The notes: a model not told the origin generated them from the sequence alone. DNA of 64,000 nt from Sulfurimonas sp. (GCF_029027405.1 NZ_CP093396.1:1488001-1552000); one strand, 5' to 3'; counted from the stretch's first letter, positions 11,612 to 61,659 are shown. Program-made: numbers and translations.

Positions 11612-11959
11612 TTAGTATTCATCTTCTTCTTCACTATCATATATAGCAAATTTTAAAGCTTCACAAGTTGCTTGAGTTGCTTCAATTTTTAAATCATCAA
11701 AACTAACTTTATTTTTTTGTATGTATTCTTCAAGTTCTTTTGTTGTATCAAGGTTATAGCATTTCAAAACTGCACTATCTTTTATATTCATATCTTCATA
11801 TATTGTTAAAAAATCCTCAACCGTATCTGATTGAAGGAGACTATTCATATTTTCATTAAAGGGAAGCATTTTATCATTTATTTCTTCTAAAACATCTTCA
11901 TCTTCAACTTCACTAATCAACTCTTGCATCTCTTTATTTATATCATTAATCGTTGTCAA
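11612..11959 (-). CDS. Uncharacterised acidic 115-residue protein
   Basis: I do not recognise this family. The product is strongly acidic (runs such as ISEVEDEDVLEEIND and the C-terminal DSEEEDEY), mostly helical in appearance, with two cysteines and no signal peptide or membrane segment. It sits between rraA (12 bases upstream) and the TRAP binding protein (2 bases downstream) on the minus strand and is almost certainly in the same operon. A real gene by spacing and codon use; function unknown. Confidence 0.75.
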   Translation of the reverse strand: MTTINDINKEMQELISEVEDEDVLEEINDKMLPFNENMNSLLQSDTVEDFLTIYEDMNIKDSAVLKCYNLDTTKELEEYIQKNKVSFDDLKIEATQATCEALKFAIYDSEEEDEY

Positions 11960-11971
11960 TATTTTTCCTTG

Positions 11972-12451
11972 TTATATTATTATTTGCGGAGTAACTATAA
12001 CTCCGTCAGTATCAGCATAAAGATAATCTCCATCTTTAAAGCCAACTCCACCAAATGAAAGATGAATATTTCTTTCCCCACTAGTTATAGGAATATACTT
12101 TCTAGGACAAGTCCCAAGAGCATAGAGAGCAACAGGAATATCTTTTATTTGAAAAGTATCTCTGATATAACCATTTACAACAATTCCTGCATAGTTGTTT
12201 TTATGTGCAAACTTCATCAGATTTTCACCAACTACTGCAAAATAATCTTCTCTCACATCAACAACAACAACTTTTCCCTTTCCATCTTCATCACGAAGTA
12301 ATTTTATTAAATCTGAATTATTTTTATCTAGTTTTATTGTTACAACTTCGCCTTTACACTTATTTGCTCCACCATAGTTTTTATATTGTGGATCAAGTAC
12401 AAAAACCTTTTCTATATGCTCATCGCAAATATCTGCTGTAAAAAAGTCCAT
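11972..12451 (-). CDS. rraA: RraA-family protein (RNase E inhibitor-like / aldolase fold)
   Basis: 159 residues from the ATG at 12451, which has GAGG nine bases upstream; a TTG at 12472 would add seven residues and is less likely. Family blocks: TADICDEHIEKVFVLDPQYKN, VVVDVREDYFAVVGENLM, YAGIVVNGYIRDT, ALGTCPRKY. In E. coli RraA inhibits RNase E, but the same fold includes hydroxymethylglutarate aldolases and Campylobacterota lack a typical RNase E, so the cellular role is open. First gene of a minus-strand operon, divergent from the glutamate mutase genes. Confidence 0.88.
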   Translation of the reverse strand: MDFFTADICDEHIEKVFVLDPQYKNYGGANKCKGEVVTIKLDKNNSDLIKLLRDEDGKGKVVVVDVREDYFAVVGENLMKFAHKNNYAGIVVNGYIRDTFQIKDIPVALYALGTCPRKYIPITSGERNIHLSFGGVGFKDGDYLYADTDGVIVTPQIII

Positions 12452-12561
12452 AAATATATCCTCTTTATTCAATTATGGATGTATTCTAGCACCTTATAAC
12501 CTAGTTTTTACATAAATTTTGCTATCTTTACATCTATAAAATATGAATAGGTATAAAATAT

Positions 12562-12972
12562 ATGAAAGTAGTTACAGGCGTAGTTGGAAATGATATACAT
12601 GTCGTTGCAAACAGACTTATAGAGCTATCTTTAAACTCAAGAGGTTTTGAAGTATTTAATCTAGGTGTAAACACCTATTTAGAAGAATTTTTTGACGCTG
12701 TTGTTGAAACTGGTGCAGATGTACTTCTTATTTCTTCACTTAATGGCGAAGCGGAAGGTTGGGCAAGAGAGGTCAAACTTTTAAAATCAAAATACAAGAG
12801 TTTAGATAATCTTGTAATGATGATAGGTGGAAACTTGGTTGTTGGAAGCGCTAGTGCTGATACAATAGTTCCAAAGTACAAAAAATATGGCTTTGATTTA
12901 GTTTTTCATCAAGTAGATTTAAACACTGGACTAGACACCTTAGAAGAGTTTTTAAAAGAGAGAAATAAATAA
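12562..12972 (+). CDS. glmS: Glutamate (methylaspartate) mutase, B12-binding sigma subunit
   Basis: 136 residues, the size of clostridial GlmS/MutS. It is a cobalamin-binding Rossmann-like domain. The cobalt-ligating histidine is in VGNDIHVVA (His13), where the usual DxHxxG reads DxHxxA. The nucleotide-tail pocket motifs LLISSLNG and IGGNLVVG are present. It binds adenosylcobalamin and pairs with GlmE to convert L-glutamate to (2S,3S)-3-methylaspartate. The gap from rraA is 110 bases, with a possible -10 (TATAAAAT, 12535-12542) and only a weak ribosome site. The stop overlaps the region just before the glmE ATG. Confidence 0.93.
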   Translation: MKVVTGVVGNDIHVVANRLIELSLNSRGFEVFNLGVNTYLEEFFDAVVETGADVLLISSLNGEAEGWAREVKLLKSKYKSLDNLVMMIGGNLVVGSASADTIVPKYKKYGFDLVFHQVDLNTGLDTLEEFLKERNK

Positions 12973-14336
12973 TGAGTTTGCTCCAAGAAGAAAGAGAAAT
13001 AATACTAAACAATGAATTTGTAGATAGTTTTGACTTCGCAGAAGTTGAAGACTTTGTACGAAATGCAAGTAAAGACCTGTTTATTTCACATGCTTTTAAA
13101 ACACAAAAGAAAATGTTAGTTCAACCTCGTGGTGGTTTCCCAACTTATAAAAAGCAATACGCTTTAAATGAGTTTTTCATCGAAGCAAATGTAGATGTAT
13201 TACCACTAACTATTGATTCAAATACTAGACTTAATGACTATGCTACTGCTAAAAAGATGCTTCGCCTTAGTGAAGAAAATGAAGTAGACATGCTAAACGG
13301 TTATCCTTTGGTAAATCATGGATATAGAACCACAAGAAAGATGATAACACACTTCAACAAGCCTGTAAGCCTAAGACATGGAACTCCAGATGCTAGACTT
13401 TTAATAGAAACTGCTATAGCATCTGGTATTTTTGAGATAGAAGGTGGACCGATTACTTATCTTCTTCCTTATTCAAAAAACTTTCCTCTTGATAAAGCAT
13501 TTTTATATTGGAAATATGTTGAAAGAGTATGTGCAAACTACTCAAAACTAAATGAGCCTATAAATAGAGAATCATTTGGTCCTCTGACAGCTACTTTAGT
13601 TCCTCCTGCAATAACTATAGTTATACAAATATTAGAAATGATGCTTTCACTAGAAGAGGGTGTTAAATCTTTTTCTGTTTCTTTTTCTCAAACAGGCTCA
13701 ATGAATCAAGATATCGTAATGGGAGCAGTAATTAAAAAACTCTCTCGTCATTACGCGAAACAAATAAACTGTGAAGATGCAAATATACATCTAGTTTATC
13801 ACCAGTGGATGGGAGCATTCCCTACAAACAAAAACTTTGCAGAACAACTAATCAATATGTCAACTATCATAGCATCTATGGTTGGTGCAGATAAAATAAT
13901 AACAAAAACTAGAGAAGAAGCATCTGGAATTCCAACAAAAGAAGCAAATGCAAAAACTGTTGCAAATACTCAATACACTCTTGGCATACTAAATGGTCTT
14001 CCTAATATTGTAGATGCTGAGGAAGAAGAGATACTTACACTTGAGGTTCATGCTATCATGGAAGCCGTTCTTAACGACTCTGCTGATACTCTTTGGAGAA
14101 AAGTATTCAACTCTATTAAAAATGGAATCATCGATGTACCATTTTCTCCTCATATTATAAATCATAATGAAATGATTACAATAAGAGATGCCAAGAAAAA
14201 TATTAGAATTATAAAAAGAGGAAATGTCCCTATACCAGATAGATGTTTTGAATACGAAAAGGCACAATGCGACCTCACAAAAGATACAACAAGTATAGTA
14301 AATGACATTATCCACGACATAGGAATCATGCAATGA
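12972..14336 (+). CDS. glmE: Glutamate (methylaspartate) mutase, catalytic epsilon subunit
   Basis: 454 residues against about 483 in Clostridium, a TIM-barrel mutase subunit. Residues matching the known substrate-binding arginine claw are present with a constant offset of about 14: Arg53 (QPRGGFPTY), Arg86 (TIDSNTRLND) and Arg135 (PVSLRHGTPDAR). Glu157, Tyr163 and Tyr167 (FEIEGGPITYLLPY) match the amine and carboxylate binders. Lys312 and Glu316 (ITKTREEASG) match the adenosyl-contacting pair. The correspondence uses remembered Clostridium numbering. This supports a working enzyme. Starts 1 base into the glmS stop and overlaps glmL by 4 bases. Confidence 0.93.
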   Translation: MSLLQEEREIILNNEFVDSFDFAEVEDFVRNASKDLFISHAFKTQKKMLVQPRGGFPTYKKQYALNEFFIEANVDVLPLTIDSNTRLNDYATAKKMLRLSEENEVDMLNGYPLVNHGYRTTRKMITHFNKPVSLRHGTPDARLLIETAIASGIFEIEGGPITYLLPYSKNFPLDKAFLYWKYVERVCANYSKLNEPINRESFGPLTATLVPPAITIVIQILEMMLSLEEGVKSFSVSFSQTGSMNQDIVMGAVIKKLSRHYAKQINCEDANIHLVYHQWMGAFPTNKNFAEQLINMSTIIASMVGADKIITKTREEASGIPTKEANAKTVANTQYTLGILNGLPNIVDAEEEEILTLEVHAIMEAVLNDSADTLWRKVFNSIKNGIIDVPFSPHIINHNEMITIRDAKKNIRIIKRGNVPIPDRCFEYEKAQCDLTKDTTSIVNDIIHDIGIMQ

Positions 14337-15511
14337 GTAAACTTTTAATAGACATAGGAAGCACTTACTTTAAAGTATGCACAGAAGAAAGCATAGAGCA
14401 ACACTTCAGAGATTTTAACAAAGATATACTTGATGATTTAACATATAAATGTGGTGAAACTATTCATAACTTTGAAAAAGATGATGTTTTTATTTGCTCA
14501 TCTGCGAACGGAGGATTAAGCACCTTAATCATAGGAATAACAAATCTTTTTTCTCTAAAGTATGCTAAAAATATAGCCTTTAATTCTGGTATAAATATTA
14601 TAGAAACAGTTTTGTATCAAAACATCAAAGAGTACTCTATTCCTAGTGATTTAATTGATGTTGTTATTGTTGCTGGAGGTATTGACTCATCTAGTTCTAA
14701 ATTTGGTGATGATTTATATGATTATCTTGATAAACTAAACTACTCAAACATCGTATTTGTGGGAAGTGAAGAAGAATCTAACACATTAAATGAAAAAATA
14801 AATGACCTTATTATATTACCTAATATCATTGACAATAAACTCCATATTGTTGAGGAAAATCTTAAAGAATATCTAACAAATCTTTACCAAGCTGATATAG
14901 TTGGAAAAGAGGAAATAAAACACCTTTATGACATCACTTCAAATCAAATATTTTCTACACCTTATATTGTAAATAAAACACTGCCACTTATAAATACAAA
15001 GTTTGCTGTAGTTGACCCTTTTATCCTTATAGATATTGGTGGAGCAACAACAGATATACACTATTCAAAAGATTTAGTTGATGAGAATATAGTTACAAAA
15101 AATGAATACGACAGGCTTGTATTTAAAAAACTAGGCGTATATAAATCAAAAGAATCTTTGATTTTTGCAGCACAAAATAATGAGTTTGTATATGAGCTTT
15201 TAACATATCTAAAAGTTACAGAAAATATCTTTGAAGAGCAGAGTGAAAAAGCTACAAGAGTTTTAATGCAATTAGCTATATTTTTGGTTTTATGCAAAAT
15301 GTCGCACTATAAAAAAGCCTACATAAACTTAAAACTACTCTCGATTAACTCTATCATTTTAACAGGCGGAATAACAAAAGTACTCTCTTCTTTAGAGATT
15401 GAAGACATCATCACATTTTTTTATAAAAAAATACTAAACTCAGAGCATAATCCAGCTACTATTTTAGATAGTAACTATGATATTTGGACTCTCGGAATAA
15501 AAGGAAACTAA
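14333..15511 (+). CDS. glmL: GlmL/MutL-type ASKHA ATPase for glutamate mutase
   Basis: 392 residues. Actin-like ATPase motifs: LLIDIGSTYFKVC at the N terminus (phosphate 1), ILIDIGGATTDIHYS (phosphate 2) and IILTGGITKVL (adenosine). GlmL proteins are encoded with B12-dependent glutamate mutases and are thought to act as reactivating chaperones that swap damaged cobalamin. It overlaps glmE by 4 bases and is followed 1 base later by the AMP-forming ligase. Somewhat shorter than clostridial MutL (about 460 residues). Confidence 0.88.
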   Translation: MSKLLIDIGSTYFKVCTEESIEQHFRDFNKDILDDLTYKCGETIHNFEKDDVFICSSANGGLSTLIIGITNLFSLKYAKNIAFNSGINIIETVLYQNIKEYSIPSDLIDVVIVAGGIDSSSSKFGDDLYDYLDKLNYSNIVFVGSEEESNTLNEKINDLIILPNIIDNKLHIVEENLKEYLTNLYQADIVGKEEIKHLYDITSNQIFSTPYIVNKTLPLINTKFAVVDPFILIDIGGATTDIHYSKDLVDENIVTKNEYDRLVFKKLGVYKSKESLIFAAQNNEFVYELLTYLKVTENIFEEQSEKATRVLMQLAIFLVLCKMSHYKKAYINLKLLSINSIILTGGITKVLSSLEIEDIITFFYKKILNSEHNPATILDSNYDIWTLGIKGN

Positions 15512-15512
15512 T

Positions 15513-17081
15513 ATGTCAATAAATTGTATAAGAACATTAATTGAAGATGCACAAGTTACTCATAAAGATAAAATAGCTTTAGTTTTGAATGAAAAAAATA
15601 TAACTTACGGTGAACTTTACACAAAAGTAAATCAGGTAGCTTACTATCTAAGTGAATTAAACTTACCAAAAGATTCAAGGATTGGCGTTTATTCAAACAA
15701 AGGTATAGAGCAAGTTATTGCAATTCTTGCTATTTTATCGACAGATTATATATTAGTTCCTCTTACAAAACTACTAAAACCAGAACAAATCGAGTACATC
15801 ATTAATGACTGTGATATCAAATGTATAATCACAGATAAACTAAAACTCCAGAGCATTGAAGAGATAGATTTTAGTGGTCATATTATTTCGTATGAAACTA
15901 CTGACAAGGAAATAGCTTCCTTTGAAGAGATTTTTAAATACTACAATAAACCTTATACTTGTGATATAAATGGGCATAACAACGCACTAATTACTTACTC
16001 TTTTGGTGTATCTGGAACTCCAAAAGGTATAGTTATTTCGCATAGAAACCTGATAGATTCTGCACGAGTCGTTTCTGGGTATTTAAACTTAAAAGAAGAT
16101 GATGTTATTTCTGGTTTACTGATTTTCAACCTTGACTATGGGTTAAATCAAATTTTTTGTACGCTTTATAAAAGGGCAACTTTAGCTTTGCATAGATTTA
16201 TACTAGCAGGAGATTTTTTTAACCACATCATAGATGACAGCGTAACTATAATTCCTCTAATGCCTATAAACATAACTCAAATGTTTGATGAAGAGATACA
16301 AAGACTACCAAGTGCTGAACTTTTTGAAAATGTAAAAACAATAACTTCATCTGGAGGAAATGCCACACACAAAATGATTTCTGAGTGTAAAAAACTTTTT
16401 AAAAATGCAGATTTTTATTCAATGCATGGCTTAACTGAAGCTTTTCGTTCAACTTATCTAGATCCTTCTCAAGTTGAAATAAGACCAGACTCCATAGGTA
16501 AAGCAATTCCTGATGTTGAACTATATGTTATTGATGAGAATGGAGCTGAGTGTGGAGTTCGAGAAGTAGGGGAGTTGATTCACAGAGGTGGCTACATCTA
16601 CAAAGGTTTTTGGAATGCACCTGAGCAAAATTCACAGAGATTTAAATCAATTCAAATTTTAAAAGATGTTATAAACCTAGAAGGACAACTCACAGATGAA
16701 ATAGTTGTTGCAACAGGTGACTATGTATACAAAGATGAGGAAGGCTACTTCTATTTTGTTTCAAGACATGACAATATGATAAAGACTAGAGGATTTAGAG
16801 TTTCTCCACTTGAAATTGAATCTGCGGTATCAAAAAATATACCTCAAATAGAACAATGCGCAATTTTTTCAATAAACAATGAACAAATAGAAGAAGAAAT
16901 AATTATGATTTATTCTTCGCCAAGTGAAATAGCACCGAAAGAGATATTATTTGAGCTTAAAAAGCATCTAGCTTCTTATATGATTCCAAGCAGAGTTATA
17001 TATAAAAAGTCTCTTCCTCTGATTCAAAGTGATAAAAATAAGATAAATATAGATGAGCTAAAGAGAGAGTTAGAAGTCTAA
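15513..17081 (+). CDS. AMP-forming acyl/aminoacyl ligase, similar to exosortase-A-associated ligases
   Basis: 522 residues, a full ANL-family adenylating enzyme. The A3 core is ITYSFGVSGTPKGIVISH, A5 is MHGLTEAFRST, A7 is ATGDYVYKDEEG, A8 is RHDNMIKTRGFRVSP, and the C-terminal catalytic lysine is in QSDKNKIN. The stretch LTEAFRST...RPDSIGKAIP...GELIHRG closely matches my memory of ligases found with exosortase A/EPS clusters (TIGR03098 type). It likely activates a carboxylic or amino acid as adenylate, then CoA or carrier thioester. Immediate coupling to glmL suggests it handles 3-methylaspartate or a derivative, but that is inference. Overlaps the convergent next gene by 12 bases. Confidence 0.85.
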   Translation: MSINCIRTLIEDAQVTHKDKIALVLNEKNITYGELYTKVNQVAYYLSELNLPKDSRIGVYSNKGIEQVIAILAILSTDYILVPLTKLLKPEQIEYIINDCDIKCIITDKLKLQSIEEIDFSGHIISYETTDKEIASFEEIFKYYNKPYTCDINGHNNALITYSFGVSGTPKGIVISHRNLIDSARVVSGYLNLKEDDVISGLLIFNLDYGLNQIFCTLYKRATLALHRFILAGDFFNHIIDDSVTIIPLMPINITQMFDEEIQRLPSAELFENVKTITSSGGNATHKMISECKKLFKNADFYSMHGLTEAFRSTYLDPSQVEIRPDSIGKAIPDVELYVIDENGAECGVREVGELIHRGGYIYKGFWNAPEQNSQRFKSIQILKDVINLEGQLTDEIVVATGDYVYKDEEGYFYFVSRHDNMIKTRGFRVSPLEIESAVSKNIPQIEQCAIFSINNEQIEEEIIMIYSSPSEIAPKEILFELKKHLASYMIPSRVIYKKSLPLIQSDKNKINIDELKRELEV

Positions 17082-18065
17082 GGTTAATTGCGTTTGTTTG
17101 ATTACAGGTTGATTAAGGATTGACTTCTCTACGCCAACAATAAGGGCAAAATGAAAGCTATTTTCTTTTAGTACCGTGAAAATATCTTCTGTATTTTCAT
17201 AAACAAAGACATTTATATCTTCCATTTGTTTTATATCGGACGGAATTATAAAAATTATATTTGCCCAAGATGCTCTTGTTTGTAAAAAACTTATCTCGCT
17301 ATCTATAAGACTTGTATTTGGCTCAAAAATAAGAACTTTATCACTAGCTCCAAAGTTTTTAATTTCAAATTTTTTATTTGTAAAAACTGCTTCAAAATGC
17401 TCTATAGGTGTAAACTTCCTAAGTCTAAAATTGATTTTTAAATTTTTCAACAAATGTAAAAGTTCTTCAAGGTAAGGTATAAAAAATGGAGAAATCAATT
17501 GTCTTTCATAAAAAATATCATCATATATAAATGATGTTTCAAATAGTGTTTGTTCCATGATTTCTATGGGCTGTATTGCCGTTTTTGGTAAGGTTTTAAT
17601 ATTTGCAAACATATCTTCGTCGTTTAGAGTAGGGCAGAATAAAACTGTTGCTCTATCTTCTAGATGCCAAAGAGATTTAAAAATAGTTTTAATATTTCCA
17701 CTAAGAACTAAAAAATTTGTTTGCGTTATGACTTGAAGAGCAAGCTTTAAAATTATTTCATTACACTCATACGCTACAATCTCTTTTTCTATTAGTTTAA
17801 ATCGTAAAAGTCTTTTTAAAGCATCATCGAGATTAGTAACCTCTATCCAAGCAATTTCACTATCACTTACTTGCGTTACTTTGTCAAAGACAATACCATA
17901 AGCACCATTTTGTACTGCGATATCTACATCTTCAACATCGAAGTTAAAAAAAAGATCACCTCTTTTTACTTTATGTGCTTCAAAAACAATATTTTCAAAA
18001 TTACTTACACATGGTTCATTAACAAGTTTCGCGCGAGTAAGTGCTAGGAAGTTTTCTAGTCTCAT
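17070..18065 (-). CDS. Mur-ligase-like protein lacking an ATP-binding P-loop
   Basis: 331 residues, cytoplasmic. The first 100 residues resemble the N-terminal UDP-binding domain of MurE/MurF: FEAHKVKRGDLFFNFD, then AVQNGAYGIVFDK and WIEVTNLDDALKRLLRFK. The middle region, where Mur ligases carry GxxGKT, reads LVLSGNIKTIFKSLWH, so the phosphate-binding loop is absent. It overlaps metG by 4 bases, so it is co-transcribed with it. Probably a degenerate MurF paralogue with a binding or regulatory role; function unknown. Confidence 0.65.
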   Translation of the reverse strand: MRLENFLALTRAKLVNEPCVSNFENIVFEAHKVKRGDLFFNFDVEDVDIAVQNGAYGIVFDKVTQVSDSEIAWIEVTNLDDALKRLLRFKLIEKEIVAYECNEIILKLALQVITQTNFLVLSGNIKTIFKSLWHLEDRATVLFCPTLNDEDMFANIKTLPKTAIQPIEIMEQTLFETSFIYDDIFYERQLISPFFIPYLEELLHLLKNLKINFRLRKFTPIEHFEAVFTNKKFEIKNFGASDKVLIFEPNTSLIDSEISFLQTRASWANIIFIIPSDIKQMEDINVFVYENTEDIFTVLKENSFHFALIVGVEKSILNQPVIKQTQLTLDF

Positions 18066-26529: not shown

Positions 26530-26604
26530 TGGTGACCCCGAGGAGAATTGAACTCCTGTAACATGGATGAAAACCATGGATCCTAACCGCTAGACGACGG
26601 GGCC
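26530..26604 (-). tRNA. tRNA-Glu (anticodon TTC)
   Basis: 75 bases with encoded CCA. Acceptor stem GGCCCCG pairs with CGGGGTC (one G-T). The D arm contains TCTAGCGGTTAGGA, the anticodon stem-loop is CATGG-TTTTCAT-CCATG with TTC as anticodon, and the T arm is AGGAGTTCAATTCTCCT. Matches the glutamate tRNA of Campylobacterota. It stands alone, away from rRNA. Confidence 0.96.
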
Positions 26605-29003: not shown

Positions 29004-29209
29004 GATTCCCCTTTATTTTTCTTCAATATGAAGAGTAAAATCTCTTTTTGTAGATTTGCAGTTGTAAATAAAATATTCTTTGTTAGAGCTGATTTTATTA
29101 AGTTGTTCTCAATTGCATTAATAGTGTAATTGAGTATAAAAATATTAATTTAGGGACTAAACGGTTACAATTAAAAATAAAAAACCTAAAATAGGCTATT
29201 GTAAAAATT
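29004..29209 (-). other. Intergenic stretch between rnpB and the zinc-ribbon gene, with hairpins
   Basis: No gene seen. A hairpin at 29108-29134 (CTCAATTGCA / TGTAATTGAG, one G-T) may end transcription. Just past the rnpB 3' end the minus strand reads a short stem CCTA-TTTT-AGG followed by TTTTTTATTTTT (29177-29196), a weak Rho-independent terminator for rnpB. The second copy of AAACGGTTACAATT is at 29159-29172. Confidence 0.45.
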
Positions 29210-29577
29210 GGGTATAGCTTATAAGCCGAGTTTTGTTTTCTAAAGAAACATTTTTGCAAAACAAAAAGCGGTCTCCTTGTTTTGATAGCATTAATCTACA
29301 ATACTATTTACATAGTATCTCTAGCGAAGCAGTAGCATTTATAAGACGCTGACCATCTACTTCTTGCTGCCATGTTGGGTTTTCAAGCTCTTCATGTTGC
29401 CATAGAGACTGGTGGTCTCTTACACCACCTTTTCACCTTTATTATCCAAATAGATAAAAGTATATTTTCTGTTGCACTTTCCCTCGTATTACTACGGCCA
29501 TTCGTTAAATGGAACACTGTCTTATAGCAGCTCGGACTTTCCTCTTGCCTAAAACAAGTATCTATCCACTATACCTA
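29210..29577 (-). ncRNA. rnpB: RNase P RNA
   Basis: About 368 bases on the minus strand. The universally conserved P4 strand GAGGAAAGTCCGAGC lies near the 5' end (29530-29544). Further bacterial type A marks are AGTGCAACAGAAA and the 3' CTCGGCTTATAAGCTATAC. The 5' GGTATAG and 3' CTATACC form helix P1, which sets the ends to within a few bases. It processes tRNA 5' ends. The upstream region is shared with the divergent TetR operator array. Confidence 0.95.
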
Positions 29578-61572: not shown

Positions 61573-61659
61573 GCCGCTATGGAGAAATTGGTAAACTCAG
61601 CAGATTCAAAATCTGCCGCCTTTACGGGCTTCTCGGTTCAAGTCCGAGTAGCGGTACCA
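61573..61659 (+). tRNA. tRNA-Leu (anticodon CAA)
   Basis: 87 bases with encoded CCA and the long variable arm of class II tRNAs. Acceptor GCCGCTA pairs with TAGCGGT (one G-T). Anticodon stem-loop GCAGA-TTCAAAA-TCTGC gives CAA. T arm CTCGGTTCAAGTCCGAG. A partial copy of its 3' half lies 169 bases downstream. Confidence 0.96.

Follow-up and report, generated by a model that had tools for sequence, protein, structure and literature searches.

A recurrent gene module of Sulfurimonas and its relatives that links glutamate mutase, an adenylating ligase and an RraA-family protein and may activate 3-methylaspartate

B12-dependent glutamate mutase is familiar either as textbook fermentation chemistry or as a niche tool for making antibiotics. 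Among the described systems closest to the locus reported here, the vicenistatin starter pathway of Streptomyces halstedii comprises the mutase VinH/VinI, the adenylation enzyme VinN, the carrier protein VinL and the decarboxylase VinO, and exosortase A/exopolysaccharide (EPS) systems pair a TIGR03098 ligase with a TIGR03099 decarboxylase. VinN reads (2S,3S)-3-methylaspartate as a beta-amino acid through D230, F231, S299, K330 and R331 (PMC11253843). The locus studied here lies in a 64,000-nucleotide stretch of Sulfurimonas sp. (GCF_029027405.1 NZ_CP093396.1:1488001-1552000; this whole stretch is referred to as the window), part of a 2.83 Mb genome assembled as a single contig. It joins the glutamate mutase genes glmS, glmE and glmL to a gene for a stand-alone ANL (AMP-forming) ligase (the ‘block’, glmS-glmE-glmL-ligase), with an rraA-family gene diverging from them. 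We lean towards reading these genes as a mobile five-gene module in which the mutase would make 3-methylaspartate, the ligase would adenylate it in the manner of VinN, and the RraA-family protein would be an enzyme of the same pathway.

Like the vicenistatin pathway, the locus combines a glutamate mutase with a stand-alone adenylation enzyme, and the pocket residues of VinN align with those of the ligase. Unlike it, the block has no VinL-like dedicated carrier, VinO-like decarboxylase or polyketide synthase, has GlmL and an RraA-family partner, and is spread over many genera as a mobile module. The closest curated family of the ligase is TIGR03098, with which it shares the pocket code, but it scores under the cut-off of that model and the window genome holds neither an exosortase nor a TIGR03099 partner. 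The first-pass annotation of this DNA had likewise described the ligase as resembling exosortase A/EPS-associated ligases. Clostridial GlmES/GlmL has the same catalytic residues and the same subunit set, whereas the block GlmE forms a separate subclade, GlmS carries a DxHxxA motif and methylaspartase is missing. Finally, the RraA-family protein shares its fold family with HMG/CHA aldolase and catalytically competent RraAs and has a motif resembling their metal motif (acidic residue-x20-R-D); it differs in having, in the window, Glu for Asp, and in having glutamate mutase rather than aromatic degradation as its genomic partner.

The conserved unit takes in the divergent rraA-like gene as well and so begins at 11972, not at 12562 (scores are from profile searches):

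11972..12451, minus strand: gene of the rraA family (here called block rraA), transcribed divergently from glmS; NF006875, 145 bits, above cut-off, and PF03737
12452..12561, no strand: divergent intergenic region of 110 bases shared by rraA and glmS
12562..12972, plus strand: glmS, cobalamin-binding subunit of glutamate mutase; PRK02261, 151 bits, above cut-off; variant motif DxHxxA
12972..14336, plus strand: glmE, catalytic subunit of glutamate mutase; PF06368, 385 bits, passed; TIGR01503, 365 bits, below the equivalog cut-off of 390
14333..15511, plus strand: glmL, divergent short ASKHA-type reactivating factor; PF13941, 97 bits; the GlmL equivalog NF040745, 82 bits, far under its cut-off of 475
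15513..17081, plus strand: stand-alone ANL (AMP-forming) amino-acid ligase; TIGR03098, 416 bits, below the equivalog cut-off of 592; VinN-like pocket D208 Y209 S280 F311 R312

The genes of the block are tightly packed: glmS and glmE overlap by 1 base, glmE and glmL by 4 bases, and a single base separates glmL from the ligase gene. Open reading frames and profile matches agree with the full glutamate mutase, and with the ligase one base downstream of it, that had been annotated here. The rraA gene has a conserved ATG at 12451, and its open reading frame runs on to a TTG at 12472. Rfam gave no match in 12452..12561 and no riboswitch near glmS in the window, and a motif search of the intergenic region returned only the glmS start.

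A scan of bacterial genomes gave 215 candidates encoding a relative, and the best 80 of the 215, with GlmE 80-94% identical, were fetched; these relatives were picked by similarity to the window, and the closest of them are Sulfurimonas genomes. By gene calling, glmS, glmE, glmL and the ligase gene lie together, essentially intact, in about 80 loci of many genera and at differing chromosomal sites, on every contig of sufficient length. Because it recurs in this way, the four-gene linkage is not chance, and the genome search for the block suggested by the first-pass annotation has found it conserved. The block is an accessory trait: among the genomes sampled, its window type was present in 31 of the 298 from Campylobacterota and in 2 of the 398 from Pseudomonadota. 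A partial and strongly divergent GlmE-like frame (127 bits) was also seen on one Pseudomonadota contig (G955; L207:7463-8980).

Outer neighbours of the block vary by lineage. Genes of the yidD-yidC-jag-mnmE type, which lie downstream in Sulfurospirillum-like genomes, were rejected as partners as being housekeeping genes, and the cytochrome c genes of Arcobacter-type genomes were rejected as clade synteny. In about 30 gammaproteobacterial loci an aspartate/aromatic aminotransferase gene (PRK09257, 570 bits; compared copies 71-92% identical) is convergent to rraA, typically some 85 bases away. In a GlmE tree with moderate backbone supports, built from sequences chosen by similarity to the window, all non-Campylobacterota sequences form one clade within the diversity of Campylobacterota, a single change by parsimony. 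Since these sequences nest as one clade, a campylobacterotal origin of the module is probable, followed by a single transfer to marine Gammaproteobacteria and, in that group, the gain of the aminotransferase.

The commonest neighbour after the four block genes is rraA, which lies beside glmS in 69 of the 80 loci. This gene, overlooked earlier, gives the best hint that the pathway includes another reaction; of the neighbours that had been proposed for listing, the window-type block has no dedicated pyridoxal phosphate (PLP) decarboxylase and no conserved dedicated carrier protein. Across the 298 Campylobacterota genomes GlmE was found in 31 and a full-scoring RraA in 34, namely all of these 31 and three others (31/31 GlmE-positive versus 3/267 GlmE-negative genomes; Fisher P 5e-39, uncorrected for kinship). 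In G207, one of the three exceptions, the block has decayed: rraA, glmS and a 67-residue ligase remnant persist (L137:9266-10476), and glmE and glmL are gone. In several genomes (G131, G234, G235 and others) rraA lies kilobases away from the block or on another contig. Because it is present even where unlinked, rraA is tied to the block by occurrence and not by position alone. Block rraA was likewise found in all 27 further block genomes, mostly of gammaproteobacteria, the copy in one of them (G315) being broken into fragments.

Most of these 27 genomes also encode a higher-scoring canonical RraA, the block copy being a separate paralogue. In the RraA tree the block proteins cluster with further RraAs of Campylobacterota, and the canonical ones stand apart from them. 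The best solved match of the window protein is 3c8o. The metal motif of RraA and HMG/CHA aldolase is D-x20-R-D (or G-x20-R-D-x2-E/D); the block RraAs keep the acidic residue 20 positions before Arg-Asp as well as a downstream Lys, which are lost in Vibrio canonical RraAs, with E-x20-R-D in the window protein and D-x20-R-D in other block members. E. coli RraA is an inhibitor of RNase E, an enzyme that, to our knowledge, is not expected in Campylobacterota. RraA-like proteins with metal motifs of this kind are considered likely class II pyruvate aldolases, and the characterised aldolase also decarboxylates oxaloacetate (PMC5065237). On these grounds we infer that the block RraA is an enzyme rather than a regulator of RNase E. 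A second RraA subfamily with the same R-D motif, untied to glutamate mutase, was seen in Arcobacteraceae-like genomes (L177-L183).

Alignment of the window GlmE with that of C. cochlearium places the arginine claw R66/R100/R149 at R53/R86/R135. The residues E171 (the amino-binding Glu), Y177, Y181 and H291 correspond to E157, Y163, Y167 and H277, and the adenosyl-contacting K326 and E330 to K312 and E316. All of these are invariant across ten block GlmEs, bearing out the earlier statement that the claw and the adenosyl Lys/Glu are retained. In GlmS, DxHxxA replaces DxHxxG in all 73 block proteins where the motif was seen, Asp and His being kept and Gly changed to Ala. As also annotated earlier, methylaspartase is absent: the best TIGR01502 match in the window genome covered 80 positions and scored 21 bits against a cut-off of 286, and none was found in the 31 other block-bearing genomes, 32 with the window genome. 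Together with the VinN-like pocket of the ligase and the ligase-mutase loci found elsewhere (both below), this makes it very probable that 3-methylaspartate is formed by GlmS/GlmE and then adenylated by the ligase.

The ligase is 31-32% identical to two true TIGR03098 members and belongs to a sister group of that family. When its pocket segment (residues 200-377) was compared with solved structures, VinN was the best match (3WV4/3WVN, E 6e-12), the next, unrelated one giving 5e-8. The alignment with VinN is free of gaps through the critical TE..R loop, which has the VinN length. D230/F231/S299/R331 of VinN, four of the five pocket residues, correspond to D208/Y209/S280/R312 of the ligase, kept or conservatively replaced, and D208, Y209, S280, F311 and R312 are invariant across 35 aligned block ligases. 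An AlphaFold model of the ligase (mean predicted local distance difference test score 66.5, below 50 in the pocket region) was too poor and was not used. Because TIGR03098 members share the code, the pocket by itself points to an acidic beta-amino acid and not to 3-methylaspartate only; 3-methylaspartate is suggested as the substrate because the mutase is encoded next door.

In the proposed working of the module, GlmS/GlmE, kept active by GlmL, would convert L-glutamate to (2S,3S)-3-methylaspartate, which the ligase, like VinN, would recognise as a beta-amino acid and turn with ATP into an acyl-adenylate, pulling the unfavourable mutase equilibrium forward. With no dedicated carrier conserved, the acyl group might pass to coenzyme A, to the general acyl carrier protein AcpP or directly to an amine. 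RraA would act as a metal-dependent C-C lyase or decarboxylase; its simplest substrate would be 3-methyloxaloacetate (transaminated 3-methylaspartate), giving 2-oxobutyrate in a disposal or branch step. Action on a transamination product would explain the aminotransferase found in many gammaproteobacterial copies. The mutase step is well supported and the adenylation step fairly well; acyl acceptor and end product are conjecture. What the sequences show directly is the gene content, the linkage, the co-occurrence and the retained residues, from which substrate, acceptor, RraA reaction and product are deduced. We tentatively suggest, as a possibility that falls short of even chance, that this pathway, widespread and mobile among marine bacteria, yields an undescribed primary or signalling metabolite derived from 3-methylaspartate, with an active RraA replacing the carrier and decarboxylase branch of the vicenistatin type.

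Several observations weigh against this assignment. The second carboxylate-binding residue of VinN, K330, is Phe311 in the ligase; exosortase-type TIGR03098 ligases without a linked glutamate mutase carry the same pocket residues; and the A10 catalytic lysine is variable in position or register and not strictly conserved. The window-type system lacks both a decarboxylase of the VinO kind and a dedicated carrier. RraA chemistry is read from a motif, in which the window protein has Glu where the aldolase has Asp, and the co-occurrence counts of rraA and glmE are uncorrected for kinship.

The same genes could alternatively lead from glutamate to 2-oxobutyrate, through mutase, aspartate aminotransferase and RraA acting as a 3-methyloxaloacetate decarboxylase, and supply isoleucine or propionyl units, with the ligase acting on a downstream or separate acid. 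Aspartate aminotransferases accept beta-methylaspartate, rraA is the tightest partner of the block, and the aminotransferase joins it in about 30 gammaproteobacterial loci; the proposed aldolase activity of metal-motif RraAs and the oxaloacetate decarboxylation by the characterised one (PMC5065237) suit such a route as well. We nevertheless consider it unlikely. The window genome encodes the threonine deaminase IlvA, and so, to the extent that they were checked, do the other block genomes; isoleucine is thus already provided for and a replacement of this enzyme is unlikely, and the universally linked ligase would be left unexplained. A distinctly smaller probability attaches to a ligase that activates plain aspartate or glutamate, as exosortase-type TIGR03098 enzymes may, the mutase just lowering or shifting the pool. 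VinN itself takes L-aspartate weakly (PMC11284099), and the pocket code is shared by TIGR03098 ligases that are not next to a mutase; against this, mutase and ligase are neighbours in three separate architectures and were co-transferred.

Equally at the improbable end, and a shade lower, we place a block RraA that is a regulator or protein partner and not an enzyme. The protein does group with the RraA equivalog model, and its E. coli namesake inhibits RNase E, but gammaproteobacterial hosts already hold a second, canonical RraA, and the motif residues missing from Vibrio canonical RraAs (acidic residue, R-D and Lys) are retained in the block proteins. Glutamate fermentation or a methylaspartate cycle with an unrecognised ammonia-lyase would make use of the complete mutase; with an ATP-consuming ligase co-transferred instead and methylaspartase absent from the 32 genomes, such a catabolic pathway is very improbable and was rejected. 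The module reading set out above, with VinN-like adenylation of 3-methylaspartate, is the one we retain.

The first-pass annotation had also proposed that activated 3-methylaspartate, or another branched acid derived from it, may be supplied for a surface polymer or small molecule. Activation accords with the VinN-like pocket, but the window-type block is not in glycan loci and has no glycan genes nearby. Exosortase was absent from the window genome, so a link of the window block to it was rejected, and from 28 of the 31 block genomes searched. The window genome gave no TIGR03099 decarboxylase, and its matches to VinO-like decarboxylases were only LysA-like and SpeA-like, with no extra LysA-like one. 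A search for dedicated carrier proteins (PF00550, 24 genomes) turned up none that was consistently additional in genomes with the block; two of these (G074 and G146) have a single carrier protein each. As exosortase, VinO-like decarboxylase and conserved dedicated carrier are all missing, a surface-polymer role of the window-type block is unproven.

The surface-glycan idea fits well two other, unrelated loci, both from the Pseudomonadota sample, which lend independent support to the pairing of mutase and ligase. In one (L205:7116-12490) a TIGR03098-type ligase gene adjoins a GlmS-GlmE fusion and a TIGR03099-type PLP decarboxylase, with glycosyltransferase genes around and a divergent DltC-like carrier protein in the same EPS-type locus. 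These are the component types of VinN, VinH/VinI, VinO and VinL, and the cassette looks like a vicenistatin-like 3-aminoisobutyrate cassette. In the other (L206:8708-13950) a carrier protein and a TIGR03098-type ligase lie near a GlmS-GlmE fusion, whose N-terminal boundary is not fixed, close to sugar-biosynthesis genes; AAC(3)-like (acetyltransferase) and methyltransferase-like frames lie between, these and the carrier protein being judged by eye. Both loci share with the block a TIGR03098-type ligase adjoining or near glutamate mutase, and differ from it in the fused subunits, carrier protein and glycan genes, and L205 also in its decarboxylase. Their ligases have the pocket code of the block ligase except for Ala at S280. 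Because they are only about 30-35% identical to it, mutase and this ligase family have been joined in at least three architectures.

Other features of the window were noted in passing. A convergent gene at 17070-18065 (minus strand) overlaps the end of the ligase gene and encodes a 331-aa protein that is conserved in Sulfurimonas, has no Pfam or NCBIfam match and, by eye, has an N-terminus resembling a MurF/MurE-type domain. At 11612-11959 (minus strand) a 115-aa protein without a Pfam match adjoins rraA in Sulfurimonas genomes. An RNase P RNA of bacterial class A lies at 29205-29577 (minus strand), and tRNAs at 26533-26604 and 61573-61656.

In the open literature of PubMed Central we found no paper on glutamate mutase in Sulfurimonas, none evident among the ranked results for Arcobacter, Sulfurospirillum or Colwellia, none on the ligase-decarboxylase-ACP (acyl carrier protein) trio and none describing the block. 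Mutase together with a VinN-like ligase is known from vicenistatin; the addition of GlmL and RraA, without a carrier, in chemolithotrophs and marine heterotrophs appears to be new. Here glutamate mutase stands at the centre of a compact module, transferred as a linked unit between Campylobacterota and marine Gammaproteobacteria. If our reading of the ligase is true, TIGR03098 ligases of exosortase/EPS loci are predicted to be acidic beta-amino-acid adenylating enzymes and not fatty acyl-CoA ligases. Activated 3-methylaspartate as the product of the ligase would imply a common, so far undescribed metabolite. On the same reading, the function of a class of RraA-like proteins becomes open to direct experiment, and an RraA paralogue whose present annotation is that of a ribonuclease regulator would gain a substrate and a pathway.

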